Assembly (NCBI GenBank): GCA_021927905.1 | Contig: BLLK01000023.1 | Location: forward strand, 558,001 to 622,000 | Length of the DNA: 64,000 bases | From: Chaetoceros tenuissimus | Lineage: Eukaryota; Bacillariophyta; Thalassiosirophyceae; Chaetocerotales; Chaetocerotaceae | Reading direction: 5' to 3' | Shown here: positions 20,358 through 31,341 of the stretch, one piece after another | How positions within the stretch are numbered: the stretch's first letter is position 1 | Layout of the letters: each line of letters starts with the position of its first letter | Position numbers and translations under genes: made by a program | Notes under the pieces: model-generated | The model's database searches: none | What the model was told of the DNA's origin: nothing | Seen by the model: the letters and a program-made list of their open reading frames with translations, nothing else

Positions 20358-20600
20358 TGCTTAAAGTAATATATATCTGTAATGAATGTAACTACAAAAT
20401 ATATTGAATTGATCAATAGTACATACACATTCATGTGTAAATTGTGAAATTTTACTCAACCGGAACGAACGACGACGGACAGACGAAAAGGCCTAAATTA
20501 ACAGTTCTATACCGTTTCATCGTTTCATCGCTAATCAATCACATACTTATCTTCTATTCAATCTACTTATCAAAGGCTTTCTATCAAAGACAAAGTGCCA

Positions 20601-22031
20601 ATGGAGGACATGGAAGCTAATTCATCAGAACATGGCTTTCAGTCAGTGGCTTCGAGAGAAGAGCTACTCTCGAAATTCAAGTTCCAAGCAACACCCGAAG
20701 CCCCACACGTATCTTTTGTTGTCTTGACAGCATCTTGGATCAATCAACGACATTTATCACTCGAAGCATTTCTTCAACCCTTTCAATCTCTAATTCGTAG
20801 ACTTATGAATGAAGACCGTGAATTCAGCTATGGCCAATACCTCTTTCAAGTAGATGCTAGCGAAGAAAGCATCGATTTTTGTGTCAAGGAACTTTCGTGT
20901 CCAGATGAACTTCCAGCAATCTACTTGATGTACTACGAGCATGATGGTAGATTACAACATGTCAAAGTTGATTTAGAAGCCAAAGATATTTTATCATTTG
21001 ATAAAAATTCACCGAAATTGAGTCTGTGGGAGTCTAAACTCAATCAAGCATTTGATACGTTTGACTTGGATCAAGATATGAATGTGTCAATGGAACAAGA
21101 AGGCTTTTCAAGTAATACTCACAAGAGATCATTCGAAAGTGAGGATCAAAGTCAAGTTAGAATATTTATAGCTGGGGATAAAAGTCAAGTTGGAAAATCT
21201 AGTATATGTATGGGAATACTTGGTGCGCTTTTGAAAAAGGGTTACGATCCGAGGAAATTGGCTTACATAAAACCAGCTACACAATGTGAAGAAACGCAAC
21301 TGGTGAAAAAGTATTGTGAGGCAAAAGGCATTGAAGCAGTGGATGTTGGACCTGTAGTATATTATAAAGGCTTCACTAGGGCATTTCTAAATGGCGAGAC
21401 AGAGTCAAGTACTGAATTACTGGAGAAAGTCAAGAACTCGGTTGATACACTAAGTCGAGGTAAACAAGTAGTATTAGTTGATGGAGTAGGATATCCAGCT
21501 GTGGGATCAATCACTAATACAGACAATGCAAGTGTATCTCTTGCATCAGGTTGTCATGGAGTTTTGATTGTAGGAAAGAGAGGAGTTGGTGATGCTGTAG
21601 ACTCTTACAATTTGAATGCGACATACTTTCGTTCAAGAAATATACCTGTATTGGGAGCAATCTTCAATAAATTGCCTTTGGACGGTTTCTATTCTTTGGA
21701 GAAATGCAGAGCTGCAGTGAGCAAGTATTTTGAACAAAATCTGAGTGGGGTAAAGAAAGAAACTATCTTTGGTTTTGTACCAGAAATGAAAGATATGAGT
21801 GATATGGACTCTTTTATAAATTCGTTCAACCAATATGTTGATGTACAGGGGATATTAAACTGCGCAGCTATATTACTTGACAATGGTGGGAAAAGTATGA
21901 ATGGTGATGGCATGGATGAAGATATGGGTCGATCTAGTATAAAAGCAATCACCTCGTCTACAAAGAGGATAAGATTATCGAGAGATCAAATAGAACAGAG
22001 TGCTAAAGCATCTGGTGCCGCCGGTGGGTGA
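20601..22031 (+). CDS. thioredoxin-like domain fused to dethiobiotin-synthetase-like P-loop protein
   Basis: Start taken at the first ATG (20601; 476 residues). Residues about 30-150 look like a thioredoxin fold without the redox pair: VVLTASWINQR stands where CxxC is expected, followed by a FQVDASEES strand and a DELPAIYLMYY segment with a candidate cis-Pro. Residues about 180-425 match the AAA_26/BioD-type P-loop family: Walker A AGDKSQVGKSS, YIKPATQ, LVDGVGYPAVGS and VLGAIFNKLP. Related domains occur in dethiobiotin synthetase, CobB and the N-terminus of some phosphotransacetylases. The substrate is unknown and biotin synthesis is not proven. The C-terminal 50 residues are disordered and basic. 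Confidence 0.75.
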   Translation: MEDMEANSSEHGFQSVASREELLSKFKFQATPEAPHVSFVVLTASWINQRHLSLEAFLQPFQSLIRRLMNEDREFSYGQYLFQVDASEESIDFCVKELSCPDELPAIYLMYYEHDGRLQHVKVDLEAKDILSFDKNSPKLSLWESKLNQAFDTFDLDQDMNVSMEQEGFSSNTHKRSFESEDQSQVRIFIAGDKSQVGKSSICMGILGALLKKGYDPRKLAYIKPATQCEETQLVKKYCEAKGIEAVDVGPVVYYKGFTRAFLNGETESSTELLEKVKNSVDTLSRGKQVVLVDGVGYPAVGSITNTDNASVSLASGCHGVLIVGKRGVGDAVDSYNLNATYFRSRNIPVLGAIFNKLPLDGFYSLEKCRAAVSKYFEQNLSGVKKETIFGFVPEMKDMSDMDSFINSFNQYVDVQGILNCAAILLDNGGKSMNGDGMDEDMGRSSIKAITSSTKRIRLSRDQIEQSAKASGAAGG

Positions 22032-22329: not shown

Positions 22330-23141
22330 AACAATGTCTACCTCAAACAGACTCCAAGTGAATTCAATACACTTTATAAATGGAATCATATCAACATTCA
22401 GCAATACAATATTATACCAGATGTTTCGTTAGTTAGGGCATCCATAGCTTTCCAGTGTATAAACGCTAGAGGAGCTATTGCTCATGGAAGAGTAATAGAG
22501 ACTACTTACGTTCCTCTTGATGACGATTCTTCTGGAAAAGGTGCTGAAAATATATTCAATGATTATGGAGGGTATCTTTCATTTACAACAGCGGAGCAAA
22601 TCAAGAACGAATTAATGAGTCGAGGTCCTGTTGTTTCGGTATTTTTCAAACTGTACTCTTCATTTTTGAAAAGCGATGTCTCGCGGTGTCAAACATTCAA
22701 TTTCAATCTACAAAATGAATTACATGACATTCTAATAGTAGGATGGGAACAAACGCCAACTGGAGAATGTTGGATTATTTACCCATTTGTTGCTGGTTAT
22801 GCTGAGAATGATTATTACGGAATGTTTGGTGTTGATGATCTATGCATAGCTCCAAAGAATGATTTTATGGAGTGGAACTGGCAGATTGGTCCGTACTTTC
22901 GGTGTAATCTGGATGCTGCAAATCCAATGTGGATTCAATAGAAGGAGTCATGTCATTTAGTATCAATACAAATCTAATGCGTCTCTTGAGCGAAGTGGTT
23001 GGTGGTGATTTTATTGAAGCTGCAATATCAAAACGAAAATTTGTAATTCAAGACTGTAGGAAGTTTGCGCACAGTCGAACTTGCTTTCTACGGAAGATCG
23101 GAATGCCTGGAGAATTGAGGTTGAGCTCGTACCTTGACTAG
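22330..23141 (+). pseudogene. decayed copy of the J-domain/pseudo-cathepsin family
   Basis: From about 22330 one frame matches the family: WNHINIQQYNIIP, FQCINARGAIAHG, EQIKNELMSRGPVVS, HDILIVGW. It reaches a stop at about 22941. The conserved C-terminal part (LLSEVVGGDFIEAA, FVIQDCRKFAHSRTC) continues in another frame to 23141. The N-terminal J-domain is missing and no start is apparent. It is the first of the tandem copies and the most diverged. I infer a truncated, frameshifted host pseudogene. Confidence 0.8.
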
Positions 23142-23388: not shown

Positions 23389-24540
23389 ATGGCGAATACT
23401 CAGAATAACTTTGCTGAAAGTAAGTTTGCAGATCTACTTTTAGATCAGGTGGAGGCTGTCCTTACTCAAGATCCTTGTGAAGACTCTCTTTATAATCTCC
23501 TCAAAATCGCTTCTCCTAACATTGAGAGATCTACTATATCTCGTGACCATCAAAAACACTTTAAGAAGCTCAAGTTTCAAGTTCATCCAGATCGCCACAC
23601 TGGAAATTCAGAAAGAGCAAATAAAATATTCCAGTCCATGGCAGATTTCTATGAGGAAGCATTGGGTTCAACTAATCGCAATCATACCCGAAAAGAAAAG
23701 AGGGAAAAGCGGTACCCTACAAACTTTGAGTCAAGTGAAAAGTGGACATACATTCACATTCGGCGTATGAAATGTATATCAAAAGAGAAATCTGTAGGTT
23801 CTCAGGTTGCAATTCAGTGCATTAATGCTAGAGGATCTATTGTACATGGAAAGACAATAGACGTTGGACAGTCTATAACCAAACCTAACAAAAGTTTAGA
23901 TCATAGATCAGCGAAAGAAGTCTTTGACATGTATGGAGGTTCCAAGGCTTTATCAAGTCAAGATGAAATTAAGACAGAGTTGATGACTCGGGGTCCAGTA
24001 GTTTCCACTTCGTTTGAGTTGTCCGCAGCCTTTCTCAGCTCTGTCGAAGGAAGAGACCATTTCTTTCATCTTGGGCTAAAAGAAAAGGTTCATGACGTCT
24101 TGATTACTGGCTGGAAACACACTTCAATGGGTGAAGTTTGGCAGATATGCCCTCTAATAAAAGCGGAGTACAATCATGTTGGAGAAGAATGTTTCAACAT
24201 TGGATTTGGACAGTATAACATTGATAGAACATGTGTAGTGCCAACAAATACTTTCGAGGATTACAATTGGCAAAAAGGCCCGTACTTCAAGGCCGATATT
24301 TGGCTTGATAGGGACACATGGTATTCGTGGAAATATATGGATTTTTCAATTAACTCAAAACAGCTTGAAGAATTGACTGAAGTCATGGGAGGTAATATTA
24401 TCGCTTCTGCAAAAAACAAGAGATTCACTCTGCAGGACTCAAGGAAGAAAGCTCACAGCAGATCTTGTTATCTTCAAGAAGTGACACTCCAAAAAAATAA
24501 TACCGCAAAGCCATGGAGGATCTCAGTAGTGTTTATTTAA
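23389..24540 (+). CDS. J-domain/papain-like (inactive) fusion protein, copy 2
   Basis: Single exon, 383 residues. The N-terminal J-domain (about 30-100) has HFKKLKFQVHPDRH with the HPD motif at about residues 66-68, then a helix (ANKIFQSMADFYEEAL) as in DnaJ helix III; HPD stimulates Hsp70 ATPase in the known family. The rest resembles the C-terminal half of cathepsin B/papain: DEIKTELMTRGPVVS, then KVHDVLITGW carrying the equivalent of the catalytic His, and CFNIGFGQYNIDRTCVVP where the enzyme has its late WG..G strands. In the likely Cys region, GSQVAIQCINARG, Gln stands where the nucleophile would be, and no NSW Asn motif follows. It ends in a conserved C-terminal module (LQDSRKKAHSRSC). 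No signal peptide is seen. A pseudoprotease adaptor role is inferred. Confidence 0.75.
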   Translation: MANTQNNFAESKFADLLLDQVEAVLTQDPCEDSLYNLLKIASPNIERSTISRDHQKHFKKLKFQVHPDRHTGNSERANKIFQSMADFYEEALGSTNRNHTRKEKREKRYPTNFESSEKWTYIHIRRMKCISKEKSVGSQVAIQCINARGSIVHGKTIDVGQSITKPNKSLDHRSAKEVFDMYGGSKALSSQDEIKTELMTRGPVVSTSFELSAAFLSSVEGRDHFFHLGLKEKVHDVLITGWKHTSMGEVWQICPLIKAEYNHVGEECFNIGFGQYNIDRTCVVPTNTFEDYNWQKGPYFKADIWLDRDTWYSWKYMDFSINSKQLEELTEVMGGNIIASAKNKRFTLQDSRKKAHSRSCYLQEVTLQKNNTAKPWRISVVFI

Positions 24541-24937
24541 GTTTGTTTTTCTTTGCTACGACGCTGTGAATAGAACCTTGTACGTGCATCTTTCGTCATT
24601 TGACAGTTTTTTAGCAACCCAACTTTTTTAAAGTGCAATGGCTAACTTCATTGTGCTTGTATTAGTACCCTTTAACTATTCTTAATAACATAGAATTGGA
24701 AGTGGTGATATATGAAGTTGTAGACATGTTTTAAATTATACTGTTTCTTCAAATTCAATTACTTCCAATGACGTATTTCAAGTGGGGAATCTAAATTACT
24801 CTTTTTTGCGTGTCCCGCGCCAAAAGTTGAAGTTCAAAGTGTTGTACCACATCTCCCATCTCCCATCATCTCCTTATGCATTTTATAATTTAAATTAACA
24901 CCATCAACTATTATTGCACATATCTGTTGATTGAATT
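24541..24937. other. intergenic region between tandem copies
   Basis: 397 AT-rich bases hold the terminator of copy 2 and the promoter of copy 3. No other feature seen. Confidence 0.5.
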
Positions 24938-26047
24938 ATGGAGAGGAAACTAAGAGAGATATTTCTAGATCAGGTAGAGGCCGTACTCTCTGAGGATCCT
25001 TGCGACGAATCGCTTTTTAGTTTATTCAAGATTACATCTCCTTCCATGAAGAGATGTTCTCTAGATACTGATCATGAACAGCATTTTAAAAAGCTGAGAG
25101 CCGAAATTCATCCGGATAAACATCGAAATTGCAGTAGAGCGAAGCGACTCTTCCAGTCCTTGACTGAATTCTATGACAAGTCTTTGGACGAAAACAAATC
25201 TGCTCCAGTTCGTAAGAAAATGAAGACCAATTTCCCCTTGAATTTTAGCTCAAGCGAGAAATGGACGTACATAAATATTAGGCAAATGGCTTTCATACCG
25301 AAAGAGAGATCTATTGGCTCTTTTGTTGCATACCAATGCATCAATGCAAGAGGAAGTATTGTACATGGAAAGAAAACACACCATCACTATAATCCGAAAG
25401 ATAAAAAGGACCAAAAATCTGCGAAGCAAGTGTTTGAAGCATATGGAGGTTTCAATATTCTTACAACCACTGATGAAATCAAAGACGAGTTGATGACTAG
25501 AGGACCAGTGGTTTCTACATCGTTTCAATTGTCAGATACATTCCTTTCTTCTGTTGAAGATAGAAAACGTTACTTTGATAGTAATCTCAAAAACAAGGTC
25601 CACGACGTACTGATCACCGGTTGGAAACATACCTCAATGGGTGAAGTCTGGCAGATTTGTCCACTTGTCTATGAAACTCTTGACGTTGGAGAAGAATGTT
25701 TCAATATTGGATTTGGGCAGTATGATATTGACAGAATGTGTATTGCTCCGAAGAGAACATTTGAGAGATGGAATTGGGAGTATGGACCTTATTTTAAGGG
25801 TTTTATTGATCATGAGCGCGATGTGTGGTATTCATGGCAAAGTATGGACTTTTCAATTGACTCAAAGCAGCTAGAAGAATTGAGTGAAACAGTTGGAGGT
25901 GATCTAATTGCTGCTGCAACTTCGAAGAAGAAGTTTACTCTGCAGGACTCGAAAAAGAAAGCTCATAGTAGATCTTGCTTTCTCACAAAAGTAAAACACG
26001 AAAAGGATAAGTCGCATTGTTGGAGAGTCTCAGTGAAATTTGTATGA
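24938..26047 (+). CDS. J-domain/papain-like (inactive) fusion protein, copy 3
   Basis: Single exon, 369 residues, starting MERKLREIFLDQVEAVL. HPD of the J-domain is at about residues 58-60 (AEIHPDKH). The papain-like half has DEIKDELMTRGPVVS and VHDVLITGWKHTSMGEVW with the His at about 222; at the expected Cys site the sequence is GSFVAYQCINARG (Phe for Cys). The C-terminal module, FTLQDSKKKAHSRSC, is shared by all copies. It is closest to copy 4: long stretches agree, including CFNIGFGQYDIDR. Confidence 0.78.
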   Translation: MERKLREIFLDQVEAVLSEDPCDESLFSLFKITSPSMKRCSLDTDHEQHFKKLRAEIHPDKHRNCSRAKRLFQSLTEFYDKSLDENKSAPVRKKMKTNFPLNFSSSEKWTYINIRQMAFIPKERSIGSFVAYQCINARGSIVHGKKTHHHYNPKDKKDQKSAKQVFEAYGGFNILTTTDEIKDELMTRGPVVSTSFQLSDTFLSSVEDRKRYFDSNLKNKVHDVLITGWKHTSMGEVWQICPLVYETLDVGEECFNIGFGQYDIDRMCIAPKRTFERWNWEYGPYFKGFIDHERDVWYSWQSMDFSIDSKQLEELSETVGGDLIAAATSKKKFTLQDSKKKAHSRSCFLTKVKHEKDKSHCWRVSVKFV

Positions 26048-26413
26048 ATTTACTTTTGTAAAACATTGTGCAGTGACATTTGTATGAAATTTTATTCTAT
26101 TGTAAAATAAACATCAAAAGCTTTGTATTATATTCATCTTTAGGCTGCTTTCATCTCTTTTGAAGCCATAGAATGATTCCTCCTCCGAGTAATTTACACC
26201 ACAAAACACACAAAAGACCAATGACATTTTTTAGTTTCTCTCCTTCTCCTTCTCCTTCTTCTCTCCTTTCCTTTTTCGTTCCTCTTTTGTCTGTCATCGA
26301 CCGTTTTTACATTTGACATTTATAAATGAAATTTGGTTTTGTATCTTATTACCTTCAAATCATTAGAAACTAGATTCTCTAACGCTTCATATTTCAAACC
26401 AAACATTCCAACA
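26048..26413. other. intergenic region with pyrimidine tract
   Basis: 366 bases. A CTTCTC-rich polypyrimidine tract lies at about 26236-26290, upstream of the next gene. No gene seen. Confidence 0.5.
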
Positions 26414-27256
26414 ATGTATTCACTCTCATCTTCAGGACTTCCTGTAAGCCGTGGTCTTTTTGATTTTGAAAAGAAAGATCCCCCGAGTGAAACTTGCCGT
26501 CAAATTCACGTGCCGTATGAAGATGTCGTGCTAAACAATCAAACATTTACACATAGATTCATTCTACTGAAATGGGAATATGCCGGATGGGAGTACATAG
26601 GTGGCGAAACATTGGATAGTACTGGCAAAGTTGTCATGAGACTCTTTGGTGCATATGTTCATAGCGAGAGGAAGAATCGTTACGAGTCAATATTTGATGC
26701 TGCTGATTCCATGGATCAAATGATGTTGGATATGTGTAACAATTTATTTGATCAATCAGGACGCCCGACAGGTAACTTTCAAAAGAAGTTAAAAGAGACC
26801 GCTTGTTGGTACGGGGATGGTTATGACATCGGGAATATTCTCTTCATTCAAGGTGTATATGCAAGAACTGCAGATGAGGACATGTACAGGGATATGGGAC
26901 TTCATGATGATATGGTCCGATCATTGATTTACAATATGGGTTGGCTAAAGGAAAAAAATGGTAACTTATATGACGTGAACAATAAACAACCAGAAGATGA
27001 TGTTAACCTTGATGAACTAGAAGAAGAAGAAAAGTACAATTTTGACATAGATATCGTAATTGGTGCTGGTGTCGAAAATTGTAAAAAAAGATTTCAAAAG
27101 ATTGCCGAAAAAGGAAAGCAAAAGGATTTGTATTTCATGTTACCTCATGAGATTGGATGGCCATTTTGTCCACATGAAAATGGCGTTGCACCTCCCATGA
27201 GCAGCAATAATGTTGATGATCCCAATGAAGGCTTGCAAGGGCAGGTAAATGAATAG
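26414..27256 (+). CDS. unknown protein; frame continues beyond a TAG
   Basis: ATG at 26414, 280 residues to the TAG at 27254. I do not recognise the family. The first half has aromatic strand-like segments (HRFILLKWEYAGWEYIGGE); the middle is acidic (DELEEEEKYNFDID); CWYGDGYDIGN and HEIGWPFCPHENG may be structural motifs. The same frame stays open after the stop for 103 more codons, to 27568, encoding a low-complexity Ser/Asn/Asp-rich tail ending KRKHDDLE. Either the TAG is a recent nonsense change or read error, or the tail was once coding. A GT..AG pair around the stop would remove 24 nt in frame, far too short for a normal intron. Confidence 0.6.
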   Translation: MYSLSSSGLPVSRGLFDFEKKDPPSETCRQIHVPYEDVVLNNQTFTHRFILLKWEYAGWEYIGGETLDSTGKVVMRLFGAYVHSERKNRYESIFDAADSMDQMMLDMCNNLFDQSGRPTGNFQKKLKETACWYGDGYDIGNILFIQGVYARTADEDMYRDMGLHDDMVRSLIYNMGWLKEKNGNLYDVNNKQPEDDVNLDELEEEEKYNFDIDIVIGAGVENCKKRFQKIAEKGKQKDLYFMLPHEIGWPFCPHENGVAPPMSSNNVDDPNEGLQGQVNE

Positions 27257-27568
27257 GATGCTCAACAGGCCAATGCATCGAATGAAAACCCAACTGATTC
27301 CTTGAATCCGGAAACCATTTCCAGCCAAGACCATTCATCTACCGCTGTTACAGATGATGTTACCAGTAGTAAAGAAGTTAATGTAAGCGTGCAGCCTGAT
27401 GCAGCAAGTAATGATGCTACTATGAACAACCAAGAATCCAATCCAAATACCATATTTGCAATTAACGATGTAAGGAATGAAGGATTAGAGACACATGACC
27501 AACCAGATGATGTCGGACAAGCAAGTGATACCAAAATTGGAAAAAGAAAACATGATGATTTAGAGTGA
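27257..27568 (+). other. in-frame open extension of the unknown gene
   Basis: 103 codons open in the frame of the upstream gene, beginning right after its TAG and ending at a TGA. Composition is disordered and acidic with a short basic end. See the entry at 26414. Confidence 0.5.
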
Positions 27569-27615
27569 TTTGAATACAGAGGCAAAGCGTAGTGGTAGTC
27601 ACGGTATGTATGGGG

Positions 27616-27762
27616 TTTTCAATTTATTCAGAGCAATTAGAAGAATTGAGTGAAGAAAATAGAGTTGATATCATCACAGAGGAAATTTCGGGGATAAAAT
27701 TTACTCTGCAGGACTGGGGAAAGAAAGCTTATAGTAGATCTTGCTTGGACATGAGGGATTAA
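27616..27762 (+). pseudogene. C-terminal fragment of the J-domain/pseudo-cathepsin family
   Basis: One open frame reads FSIYSEQLEELSEE, then ...IKFTLQDWGKKAYSRSC and a stop. It matches the last 50 residues of copies 3 and 4. Nothing of the J-domain or protease-like part remains. It is a relic of a further tandem copy. Confidence 0.85.
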
Positions 27763-28097
27763 TTAAGAGAAACCGTCACAACATTGTTCCCATAGTTTTT
27801 TCTTTTAACGCCTAATTATGAATGCATCCACTATGCAACTTGCTGGCGTCACCAAGTCTTTGAGTCACTTATGATTTAACGCTTAACCTCTTTCTTTCAT
27901 GAGGCTTATACGTGTTTTAACACAGCGTGGATAGAGTTCAGTCAAGAACTGCATGTTTATTCCTCCTCTCTTTGAGGTAAGAGTTCATCTACAAGACTCA
28001 ACTGTTTGCGTGGGAAGTAGCGTGGATATTCACATCCAAGCAATATCGTGCATTATCTTTACTCATAATTCACATTACCAAAACTTGTTGCTGAAAT
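27763..28097. other. intergenic region
   Basis: 335 bases upstream of copy 4. It shares short strings with the flank of copy 2 (AGCGTGGA, CAAGACT.AACT), suggesting duplicated promoter sequence. No gene. Confidence 0.4.
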
Positions 28098-29210
28098 ATG
28101 GAAAGTAAACTAAGAGAGATATTTCTAGATCAAGTGGAGGCCGTACTTTCCCTAGAGCCTTGCGACGAATCGCTATTCAAGCTATTCACGATTATTTCTC
28201 CTACCATGAAGAGGTCCTCCCTAGATACTGATCACGAGAAGCATTTCAAAAAGCTAAGAGCTGAAATACATCCGGATAAACATCGAAATTGTAAGAGAGC
28301 AAACCAACTCTTCCAGTCCTTAACTGACTTCTACGAAGAGTCTTTGGGTGAAAACAAATCTACTCCAGTTCGTAAGAGAACGAAGACTAGCTATTTCCCC
28401 TTGAATTTTAGCTCAAACGAGAAGTGGCCATACGTAAATGCCAGGCAAATGACTTACATTCCAAAGGAGAAATCAATTGGCTCTCTTGTTGCATACCAGT
28501 GCATCAACTCAAGAGGAAGCATCGTGCATGGAAAGAAAACCCGCTATTCATATTCTCCGAAAGATAAAAACGACCAAAGATCCGCGAAGAAAGTATTTGA
28601 AGCAATTGGAGGTTATAAACTTCTGTCTACACCAGATGAAATCAAAGCAGAATTGATGGCAAGAGGACCAATTGTTTCCACCTCATTTCAATTGTCTAAT
28701 GCATTCCTTTCTTCTGTTGAAGATAGAAACCGCTTCTTCAATAGTAATCTAAAAAGCAAGGTCCATGATGTCTTGATTACCGGCTGGAAACATACCTCAA
28801 TGGGTGAAGTCTGGCAGATTTGTCCACTTGTCTATGAAACTCTTGAGGTAGAAGAAGAATGTTTCAATATTGGATTTGGGCAATATGATATTGACAGAGT
28901 GTGTGTTGCTCCGAAGAATACATTTGAGGGTTGGAGTTGGGAGTCTGGACCTTATTTTCAGAAAAGTATGTCCAATGAGCGCGACGAATGGTATTCATGG
29001 CAAATTATGAACTTTTCAATTGACTCAAAGCAGCTAGAAGAATTGAGTGAAGCAGTTGGAGGTGACCTAATTGATGCTGCAACTTCGAAGAAAAAGTTTA
29101 CTCTACAGGACTCGAGAAAGAAAGCTCATAGTAGATCTTGCATTCTCAAAAACGTGAAACACGAAAAGGATAAGTCGCATTGTTGGAGAATTTCAGTGGA
29201 TTTCGAATGA
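28098..29210 (+). CDS. J-domain/papain-like (inactive) fusion protein, copy 4
   Basis: Single exon, 370 residues. HPD at about 58-60 (AEIHPDKHRNC). At the putative nucleophile site the sequence is GSLVAYQCINSRG (Leu for Cys); DEIKAELMARGPIVS and VHDVLITGWKHTSM follow. The C-terminal module FTLQDSRKKAHSRSC is kept. Very close to copy 3, with scattered differences, indicating recent duplication. It converges on the phosphoglucomutase gene, 59 bases away. Confidence 0.78.
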   Translation: MESKLREIFLDQVEAVLSLEPCDESLFKLFTIISPTMKRSSLDTDHEKHFKKLRAEIHPDKHRNCKRANQLFQSLTDFYEESLGENKSTPVRKRTKTSYFPLNFSSNEKWPYVNARQMTYIPKEKSIGSLVAYQCINSRGSIVHGKKTRYSYSPKDKNDQRSAKKVFEAIGGYKLLSTPDEIKAELMARGPIVSTSFQLSNAFLSSVEDRNRFFNSNLKSKVHDVLITGWKHTSMGEVWQICPLVYETLEVEEECFNIGFGQYDIDRVCVAPKNTFEGWSWESGPYFQKSMSNERDEWYSWQIMNFSIDSKQLEELSEAVGGDLIDAATSKKKFTLQDSRKKAHSRSCILKNVKHEKDKSHCWRISVDFE

Positions 29211-29269: not shown

Positions 29270-31341
29270 TTATGTGATTACTGTTGGCGATTCTCTTCCT
29301 GTAAGTTCTGTCATCTTCACGAGTGACAATGCTCTATCAGCCAAACTCTTGAGTGCGACTGGAGCTGCTTCATCGTGCTTGGATTGATCCTTTTCGAACT
29401 TTTCTAAATACATACGAATTGTTGCACCAGCTGATCCGGTTCCTGATAATCTAAAGATTACTCTAGCGGTATCTCCTGATGGATATTTGAATGAAAGAAT
29501 AAGTCCTTGTTTCGATGTTGTAGATCCATCTACTGGATCAGTGTATCCAAATTCTTCAGCTCCTACTAATTCAATGTCTCCACTTTCTGCACTAGAAACA
29601 TCACCATTGACAAAGGAATCTCTGATAAGGTCCATTACCTCATTCGCAGAATCTGACTCTACAGCTTCGTAGTCATATCTACAGTAAAAATGACGCCCAT
29701 ACTTTGCCCAATGATTCTTAACAATATCCTTGACGCTTACAAGTGGTTCTCCCTCTGGTACATTTTCATTCGCCTTCATAAGAATAGACATCCATGCAAG
29801 TACAGCCCAAAGTCCATCCTTTTCACGAATATGATCACTTCCAGTTCCAAAAGACTCTTCTCCACAAAGGAACGGAGTGTAGTCAGTTCCATCAAACATT
29901 TCCTTAGAAGACATGAGGTTTCCGAAAAACTTCCATCCAGTCGGAGTACTAAAACATGGAATATCTCTCGCCTCTGCTACGACATCTAACGCAGCAGAAG
30001 AAGGCATGGATCTAGCAACTCCCTTTGGACCTCCCGCCTTTGCAAAATGAGGAATCGCCTCCCAATTATCACAAATCATTGCAAGTGAATCAGAAGGTGT
30101 AACGAAACATTGTGCTCCCGCAATAAGATTTCTATCTCCATCACCATCGTTTGCTGCTCCAAGCATTGGAATACTATCAAAATCAACACTTTCCTCTGAA
30201 CTTCCGTCTGCTTTCAATCCCATCTTCTTCACCAAGTCTGCTGCGTATGTTAAGTTCGGATCCGGATGACACTTGCCGAAGTCGATGCGTGGATCTGATC
30301 TCAATAGAGATGACTATGAAGTCAAGAGAAGAAATGTGATTAGTTACGAACAAAATAGAGAGAAATGGACAATATCTATATACCAATATCCCATCACACT
30401 TAGAATAAAATACAGAGTACATGCCTGCTTTCAGTTTCCATATCACTTACTTCTGGAAGACCAATTTCATCGACCAAAACCTTTTTCGCAAATGGTCCAC
30501 CTGCACCATGCATTCCATCGTAAAGGATGGAAACGCCATCACGCTGACAGAATTTCTTGAGCCCATCAAAGTCAAAGCAACCCTTCAAAGATTCCATGTA
30601 GCTATCAAATGGATCAATAATAGTGACGGTCGATCCATCAGTAATTTCAAAAGTAGTTCCAACATCAGCATTCAAGTCAATGTCACTAGCATCCTCCACG
30701 GTCTTGAAAGTCTTGAGCTCCAAACTCTTTGCATAAAGTGCTTCAGTAAATTCTTCTCCTGCAGGCTGACCATATCCTTCATTATACTTGATACCAAAAT
30801 CTTCACCTGGTCCACCTGGATTATGAGAAGCAGTCAAAACAATCCCTCCCTGTGCCTTTCCCCCTTCAAGAGTACGAATAGCAGCTGAAACAGCAGGAGT
30901 ACTCATGATACCTCCCTGTGGAATCCAAATATTCTTGACACCATTCCCAGCCAATACCTTGACGATAATTTGAATCGCCTCGTTATTAAAGTATCTTCCA
31001 TCTCCTGCTACAATCAAAGTATCCAATGGCTTTCCTTCATTATTATCCATAGCAGTATCTACCAAACTTTGAATAAAGTTCTCGACATAATTCTTATTTG
31101 CCTCATCGACAGCTTGCCATACTTCTACTTTTTTACGAAGACCAGATGTTCCCGGTCTCATTCCTTCAATTGGCTTGGTGTCTACTTCAATCGCAGTAGC
31201 ACCGAGCGATGTTGAAGAAGGAACGGAGGAAGATGCACCCCCTCTTACTGCAAATGTTGCTGGAGTCGTCCATGCTCTTGCACTGTAGCTTGGTGAGCAT
31301 AAAAGTGCCAACCCGATGGTAGCCGAGAGATGAAATTTCAT
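29270..31341 (-). CDS. PGM: phosphoglucomutase, plastid-targeted
   Basis: Two exons: 31341-30451 and 30313-29270 (intron 30314-30450, GTAAGT..ATAG, phase 0), 644 residues. It interconverts glucose 1-phosphate and glucose 6-phosphate. Motifs: TASHNPGG with the phosphoserine at about 171, DGDGDRN metal site at about 352, CGEESFGTGSDH sugar loop, and RLSGTGSAGATIR phosphate site near the C-terminus. The N-terminus is a signal peptide ending SYSARA|WTTPATFAVRGG; an aromatic residue right after the signal-peptide Ala is the mark of diatom plastid import (ASAFAP-type, here with Trp). Start chosen at the ATG opening this presequence. It diverges from the gene at 31811 across a 469-bp shared promoter. 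Confidence 0.92.

Follow-up and report, generated by a model that had tools for sequence, protein, structure and literature searches.

A tandem cluster of three intact genes in Chaetoceros tenuissimus

We analysed a stretch of 64,000 nucleotides (the window) from Chaetoceros tenuissimus (assembly GCA_021927905.1, contig BLLK01000023.1, positions 558,001 to 622,000 of the forward strand), in which three related genes, here W1, W2 and W3, each encode a probable J-like N-terminal part followed by a cathepsin B-like domain that lacks the catalytic Cys. The window is part of the genome that we searched, which comprises 41,027,912 bases in 68 contigs. All three genes lie on the plus strand in the order W1-W2-W3, and W3 is 79% identical to W2 and 60% identical to W1. 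An earlier sequence-only reading of the locus had described three intact copies sharing a set of motifs; we confirmed each as a single open reading frame (ORF) of 383, 369 and 370 amino acids (aa), respectively, and found the His-Pro-Asp (HPD) tripeptide, ELM[TA]RGP[VI]V, VHDVLITGW, GS[QFL]VA[IY]QC and LQDS[RK]KKAHSRSC in all three. The genes and the parts of W3 are as follows:

23389-24540, plus strand: W1, intact single ORF, 383 aa, with a J-like domain carrying HPD, a linker, a degenerate papain-like domain and a C-terminal module
24938-26047, plus strand: W2, intact single ORF, 369 aa
28098-29210, plus strand: W3, intact single ORF, 370 aa
28098-28349, plus strand: J-like domain of W3, aa 1-84, with helices at 2-17, 23-33, 41-56 and 65-82 and HPD at 58-60
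28395-28997, plus strand: degenerate papain-like domain of W3, aa 100-300, with invariant Cys135, Arg139, His144 and His223
28998-29207, plus strand: C-terminal module of W3, aa 301-370, modelled as a strand, two helices and three strands

A family of at least 13 loci

Searching the genome with W3 returned 27 matches that group by place into 13 loci, a count to be taken as a lower bound, from which four weak matches (C54, C48:2322529, C16 and C47; E-values of 3e-4 to 0.3) were left out. These loci comprise nine intact members (W1, W2, W3, C44, C27a, C27b, C33, C48 and C14), a C27 copy split over two frames, two broken copies (C17 and C32) and one fragment, and genome searches with C14, the most distant member, and with the C-terminal module alone added no further locus. 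Kinship among the intact members is far beyond chance: their identity to W3 ranges from 79 to 29%, and the most distant paralog still matches it at E 7e-39.

The family alignment, built from the nine intact members with the split, broken and fragmentary copies left out, contains 41 invariant columns. Three of them lie in the J-like part (L26, P35 and F78), and those outside it include A132, C135, I136, R139, G140, I142, H144, G145, G190, P191, H223, G229, W230, W239, W281, G284, P285 and F287. The tree inferred from these nine rows, J columns excluded, has no inner branch that reaches the support threshold, and the long branches of C48 and C14 join in it.

Two further observations concern the C27 members. 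C27b alone among the intact members ends in a tail of about 150 aa rich in Ser, Asp and Lys, in which SLDSSDSESTS occurs twice. Beside C27a on contig C27 lies a long Cys-rich repeat protein that looks Notch/LNR-like by eye (L024 2038-3288, minus strand); according to the accessible part of one report, C. tenuissimus has more Notch-domain genes than the organisms it was compared with (PMC8613185).

The middle domain is predicted to be papain-like

The sequence-only reading had aligned the region behind the J-like part with cathepsin B. By Pfam, the papain-family match falls below the cut-off in W3 (E 0.001) and W2 (E 0.009) and is not listed for W1; among the copies, C44 (21.4 bits) passes the cut-off of 20.7 bits. 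The broken copy upstream of W1 also passes it (Peptidase_C1, 21.3 bits), its intact window neighbours remaining below. The nine-member profile matches Schistosoma cathepsin B1 in the PDB at E 5e-4 in two collinear pieces, hhalign against seven of the eight papain-family loci of the same genome yields E 6e-5 but a probability of only 65%, and a profile-profile alignment scores 10 standard deviations higher than 40 column shuffles.

We then modelled full-length W3 with AlphaFold2, template-free and with the nine alignment rows, obtaining a mean predicted local distance difference test (pLDDT) score of 81.4 and a predicted template-modelling score of 0.60. A Foldseek search with this model returned 145 PDB matches at E<=0.001, and the best 50 of these 145 are all cathepsins or papain-family relatives, led by proCathepsin B (E 2.6e-6) and cathepsin S (E 3.9e-6), with template-modelling (TM) scores by target length of up to 0.59. 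The papain fold anticipated for W3 residues 100-300 was therefore recovered by fold search. In a viral structure library the top three matches carry papain-like or peptidase names, one of the three at E<=0.001. Papain-family genes that do carry the Cys motif are also present in the host genome; in the PDB, they match cathepsins H and X best. From the model and the profiles, we favour a papain/cathepsin-like middle domain that would keep the right-hand half of the fold plus one L-domain helix; the cathepsin B-like assignment thus stands by fold search and profile, though not at the Pfam threshold in W1, W2 or W3.

The catalytic Cys is absent and its segment most likely deleted

The catalytic Cys is missing from all nine intact members under either register considered. 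The sequence-only reading had located the site within GS-x-VA, with Gln, Phe or Leu in place of Cys and strongly conserved flanks. That column is unconserved, with L, F, Q, R, D, E, S, Y and L in the nine members, and the conservation of the flanks lies mainly on the 3' side (A-x-x-C-I-x-x-R-G-x-I-x-H-G).

To score alternative registers, we used a profile that combines four papain-family rows from the PDB output with five from the same genome. In three overlapping segments, first place goes to a register in which A132 falls on a later L-domain helix (AFQYIKANGG...), and 10, 8 and 0 of 2000 shuffles do as well. The register that sets GS-x-VA on the Cys motif ranks 2, 5 and 3 of 196-197, and here 22, 97 and 61 of 2000 shuffles do as well; the later-helix register scores better in every one of the nine members. 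Consistent with this, the Pfam alignments of W2 and W3 begin beyond the Cys motif (profile positions 74-185). Setting Cys135 on the catalytic Cys gives ranks of 55, 62 and 42, and 638, 800 and 637 of 2000 shuffles do as well. A differing path obtained at a gap-opening cost of 4, which places aa 110-112 and 125-130 directly after the Cys, was rejected as over-gapped. The case for the later helix draws on the fixed-register tests, the agreement of nine members, Pfam and collinearity, single segments not being significant scan-wide.

In the W3 model, only about 20 residues separate the predicted strand 102-103 from the helix 124-144, and an FPxNF...W stretch ahead of GS-x-VA is similar to the N-terminal cathepsin B strand. 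On these alignments, it is most likely that the Cys segment was deleted rather than the Cys swapped in place. The description of the protein as a dead protease accordingly survives with respect to the missing nucleophile, and the in-place swap proposed as its route is probably wrong. A missing Cys helix would mean that half of the substrate groove is missing too, and this weakens the earlier suggestions of peptide recognition through a dead groove and of an inhibitor decoy.

The other catalytic positions behave differently from one another. The catalytic His (His223) is invariant in nine of nine, and the stretch aligned around it ranks first of 196, with 1 of 2000 shuffles as good. For the Asn, an ungapped register points to the column of W3 Pro243, which holds P, P, P, P, S, S, P, P and S in the nine members and comes second among 207 places, with 147 of 2000 shuffles as good. 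A gapped register, with an insert of about 31 residues, points to column 274, which holds N, R, N, S, N, Q, S, S and S and comes 16th among 207 places; three of the nine (W3, W1 and C27a) have Asn there. The gapped register would also bring the W281-x-x-G-P-[YF]-F block onto a conserved Trp-Gly stretch, a placement that comes first among 203, with 43 of 2000 shuffles as good. As aligned, the catalytic Asn is unconserved across the family in both registers. Cys135 (28500-28502), His144 (28527-28529) and His223 (28764-28766) are invariant in all nine despite the loss of the catalytic Cys.

The N-terminal part is probably a divergent J-like hairpin

The N-terminal region had been described as a J-domain with HPD. 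Pfam DnaJ matches W1, W2 and W3 with E-values of 4.8e-4, 1.1e-3 and 2.1e-4, and five of the nine members match at E<=1. When compared by hhalign with a profile built from eight of 73 DnaJ matches in the same genome, the family aligns at a P-value of 2.8e-6 (probability 88%), HPD falling on HPD. A PDB search with the nine-member profile lists J-domains at E 0.02-1.8, the best being 1iur (KIAA0730, presumably sacsin) at a non-significant E of 0.022. The structural model of W3 residues 1-95 (pLDDT 82) places HPD in the gap before the last helix (65-82), and in a fold search the DnaJ-like domain 2ys8 came first, with a probability of 0.93 against at most 0.23 for the others listed. Unlike 1iur and 2ys8, neither of which is a significant match, the hairpin has an extra N-terminal helix.

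An exact HPD is present in five of the nine intact members (W1, W2, W3, C33 and C48), which range down to 35% identity to W3, and sits between two helices of J-domain length. We count three HPD changes in the family, a soft figure because its tree lacks supported inner branches and the long C48 and C14 branches join. These results suggest a divergent helical hairpin of J-like type at the N-terminus, its J identity probable by sequence and unproven by fold; HPD and hhalign favour the J-domain assignment, Pfam leaves it below its cut-off and the fold search below significance.

Within the genome, the C-terminal module is confined to the family

The C-terminal module contains LQDS[RK]KKAHSRSC, is modelled at a pLDDT of about 82-92 and has no match in Pfam. 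A genome search with it alone found 12 places, all among the 13 family loci, with C48 not found. As the sequence-only reading had supposed, this piece is without a domain name, here judged by Pfam; it is family-specific within the genome and, in the model, beta-rich.

Selection and predicted location

The ratio of nonsynonymous to synonymous substitution rates (dN/dS) for the closest pair, W2/W3, is 0.25, and is below 1 in every part (J 0.14, linker 0.50, papain 0.27, C-terminal 0.47). The ratio is 0.19 for W1/W2 (papain 0.14, C-terminal 0.23) and 0.21 for C27a/C27b (papain 0.19, C-terminal 0.46), both pairs having dS >1.6; in W1/W3 and W3/C33 silent sites are saturated or nearly so.

A J-like domain stands at the N-terminus in place of the signal peptide and propeptide of the papain family. 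A simple hydropathy scan, which is not a signal-peptide predictor, detected no strongly hydrophobic start in 10 rows: the highest 15-residue Kyte-Doolittle mean is 1.53, in C14, and at most 1.00 in the other rows.

Other features of the window

Remnants of further copies lie within the cluster and 5' of W1-W3:

22330-23140, plus strand: broken fourth copy, papain-like and C-terminal parts in two frames, with matches at 22351-22935 and 22947-23099
27604-27747, plus strand: fragment from the C-terminal part of another copy, sharing 58% identity with aa 302-349 of W3

No J-like part was detected in the broken copy at 22330-23140. Between W2 and W3 there is an orphan ORF of 307 aa (26333-27253, plus strand), single-copy in the genome at E<=0.001, for which the best Pfam match is no better than E 0.13. 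On either side of the cluster, two ORFs at 29270-31341 (minus strand) resemble a phosphoglucomutase in two exons or frames, and an ORF at 20595-22031 (plus strand) resembles a P-loop protein of the dethiobiotin synthetase type, extended at its N-terminus.

Discussion

The fusion of a J-like part to a papain-fold domain without catalytic Cys is supported by sequence profiles, and its papain part also by fold search. From N- to C-terminus, the proposed architecture would run from a J-like hairpin with an extra leading helix through a variable linker and a degenerate papain/cathepsin-like domain to a family-specific, beta-rich module. The reading to which we give about half of our confidence is that of a multi-copy, non-proteolytic and probably intracellular J-like family that uses its papain remnant as a binding module. 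The papain remnant and the C-terminal module would bind a client or partner protein, and in the five HPD-bearing members the J-like part may pass the bound partner to Hsp70, or stimulate Hsp70. The four HPD-less paralogs may bind this partner independently of Hsp70, or they may form pairs with HPD-bearing members and temper them. In the accessible text of a J-domain paper, even conservative HPD changes eliminate Hsp70 stimulation (PMC13254874), so HPD-less members would be unable to use Hsp70 in the known way.

Several observations weigh against this reading. The DnaJ scores of W1-W3 lie below the Pfam cut-off (19.4-21.7 against 27.8 bits), none of the 73 matches of the genome-wide DnaJ search (E<=0.001) falls in this cluster, and the fold search with the J-like model gave no match at E<=0.001 (best E 0.46, TM 0.50, root-mean-square deviation (rmsd) 6.9). 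HPD is replaced in four of nine members, by NSN in C44, DVN in C27a, DFD in C27b and HPS in C14. Selection does not follow the motif: the J part is as constrained in the HPD-less pair C27a/C27b (dN/dS 0.12) as in the HPD-bearing W2/W3 (0.14), which suggests that the hairpin is used for something beyond HPD, or was so constrained before HPD was lost, and in W1/W2 the J part (0.22) is less constrained than the papain part (0.14). As to the papain part, the best 50 of the 145 fold matches reach a TM by query length of only 0.29-0.37, with rmsd values of 4.3-22; as to the deletion of the Cys segment, segment 126-140 ranks a third place first, the later helix second and the Cys register third; and scan-wide shuffles reach the best score in 109, 607 and 123 of 1000 (132-152, 126-152 and 120-140). 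Searches with two heat-shock element patterns found no site near the copies, both returning the same two distant sites, 2264 and 2638, which are no excess over chance, and a transcriptome paper on virus infection of C. tenuissimus contains none of six chaperone or cathepsin terms (PMC12305248). A nuclear location, considered from basic stretches, was set aside, these being denser than in shuffles (p<0.05) in only two of 10 rows. Since the J-like part is divergent, its fold match non-significant and four of nine members without HPD, the label of Hsp70 cochaperone given by the sequence-only reading can hold for some members only.

The same evidence bears on other explanations. The hairpin may be J-like in shape and motif only, with the papain remnant and the C-terminal module acting as an Hsp70-independent protein-binding scaffold, which we regard as possible, if doubtful. 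Such a scaffold would fit the sub-threshold DnaJ scores and non-significant fold match, the absence of HPD from four intact members and from the split C27 copy as well, the small share of the hairpin in the invariant columns (3 of 41) and its equal constraint in HPD-less and HPD-bearing pairs; against it count the exact HPD kept between J-length helices in five members, down to 35% identity to W3, and its placement on HPD by hhalign. A full-length pseudo-cathepsin with its Cys replaced in place is unlikely: the GS-x-VA register does rank 2, 5 and 3 of 196-197, and FPxNF...W does recall the N-terminal strand of cathepsin B, but the later-helix register comes first in the same three segments, is better in nine of nine and is the one chosen by Pfam, the proposed Cys column is unconserved, and strand 102-103 and helix 124-144 are only about 20 residues apart.

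Regulation of active cathepsins by a cystatin-like or protease-inhibitor decoy has a precedent in an inactive schistosome cathepsin B paralog, for which the available part of the report shows a decoy/regulator role (PMC7054455), and the present genome offers both a cathepsin B-like domain without catalytic Cys and papain-family genes with the Cys motif. A decoy would presumably need a two-domain groove, however, and in this family the Cys helix has most likely been lost, no strongly hydrophobic start was found by the hydropathy scan and the J-like part is left unexplained, so that we hold this to be very unlikely. We give still less credence to an enzyme with a relocated nucleophile, formed by Cys135 with His223 or His144: all three are invariant in nine of nine, but the register that sets Cys135 on the catalytic Cys scores like shuffles, and the Asn is unconserved. 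That the copies are decaying repeats without function, as two broken copies, one split copy and one fragment among 13 loci might indicate, is scarcely credible in view of nine long intact ORFs and dN/dS of about 0.2-0.25 in the three usable pairs.

Returning to a J-like family with a papain remnant, its best reading among known systems is as a mix of class C and type IV J-like proteins. Class C (type III) and type IV J-domain proteins likewise carry a J or J-like domain on unrelated domains, those of type IV without a proper HPD, as described in the accessible parts of two papers (PMC13254874, PMC10349383). The present family differs from them in its sub-threshold J-like part, in combining HPD-bearing and HPD-less members and in its papain-like partner; one of the papers uses neither the word cathepsin nor the word peptidase (PMC13254874). 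By analogy only, Pam16/Pam18, in which an HPD-less J-like protein is complexed with an HPD-bearing one, may serve as a model for such a mixed family, as far as the same source goes (PMC13254874).

With the cathepsin B branch of peptidase family C1A, the middle domain shares the papain fold, GP[VI]VS, a His-containing strand, the GW motif and the strand-like FPxNF...W; unlike that branch, it has no catalytic Cys, most likely no Cys helix and no conserved Asn, and a J-like domain replaces the propeptide. Inactive papain paralogs such as TrCB1.6 of Trichobilharzia, SMIPP-C of the scabies mite and SERA5 of Plasmodium also form multi-copy groups with non-proteolytic members. Their abstracts state that TrCB1.6 and SMIPP-C were inactivated by catalytic-site mutation (PMC7054455, PMC5956821) and that SERA5 acts non-enzymatically (PMC5500368), and these abstracts mention neither a J-domain nor loss of the Cys helix; in contrast to a point-mutated active site, a deletion register is favoured here.

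J-domain proteins with odd partners are known, as are inactive papain-family proteins. A combination of the two in which four of nine paralogs have lost HPD was not found in the literature searched, and no J-domain/papain-family fusion appeared in the titles and abstract beginnings of the open-access papers listed, in agreement with the sequence-only reading, which knew of no such fusion. Nor were relatives found in collections of viruses, phages, bacteria and archaea, in which viral contigs and bacterial and archaeal genome contigs were searched with the family alignment and phages by tblastn with W3. More speculatively, a cathepsin B-like gene without its catalytic half may have been captured behind a J-like domain and expanded into HPD-bearing and HPD-less paralogs, giving one algal lineage a client-binding module of protease origin that would serve Hsp70 and come with its own antagonists. 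The family would show a protease fold reused, minus its catalytic residue, as the partner domain of a chaperone-helper, and the presence of HPD-bearing and HPD-less versions of one architecture in one genome would offer a natural experiment on the role left to a J-like domain that has become unable to drive Hsp70.

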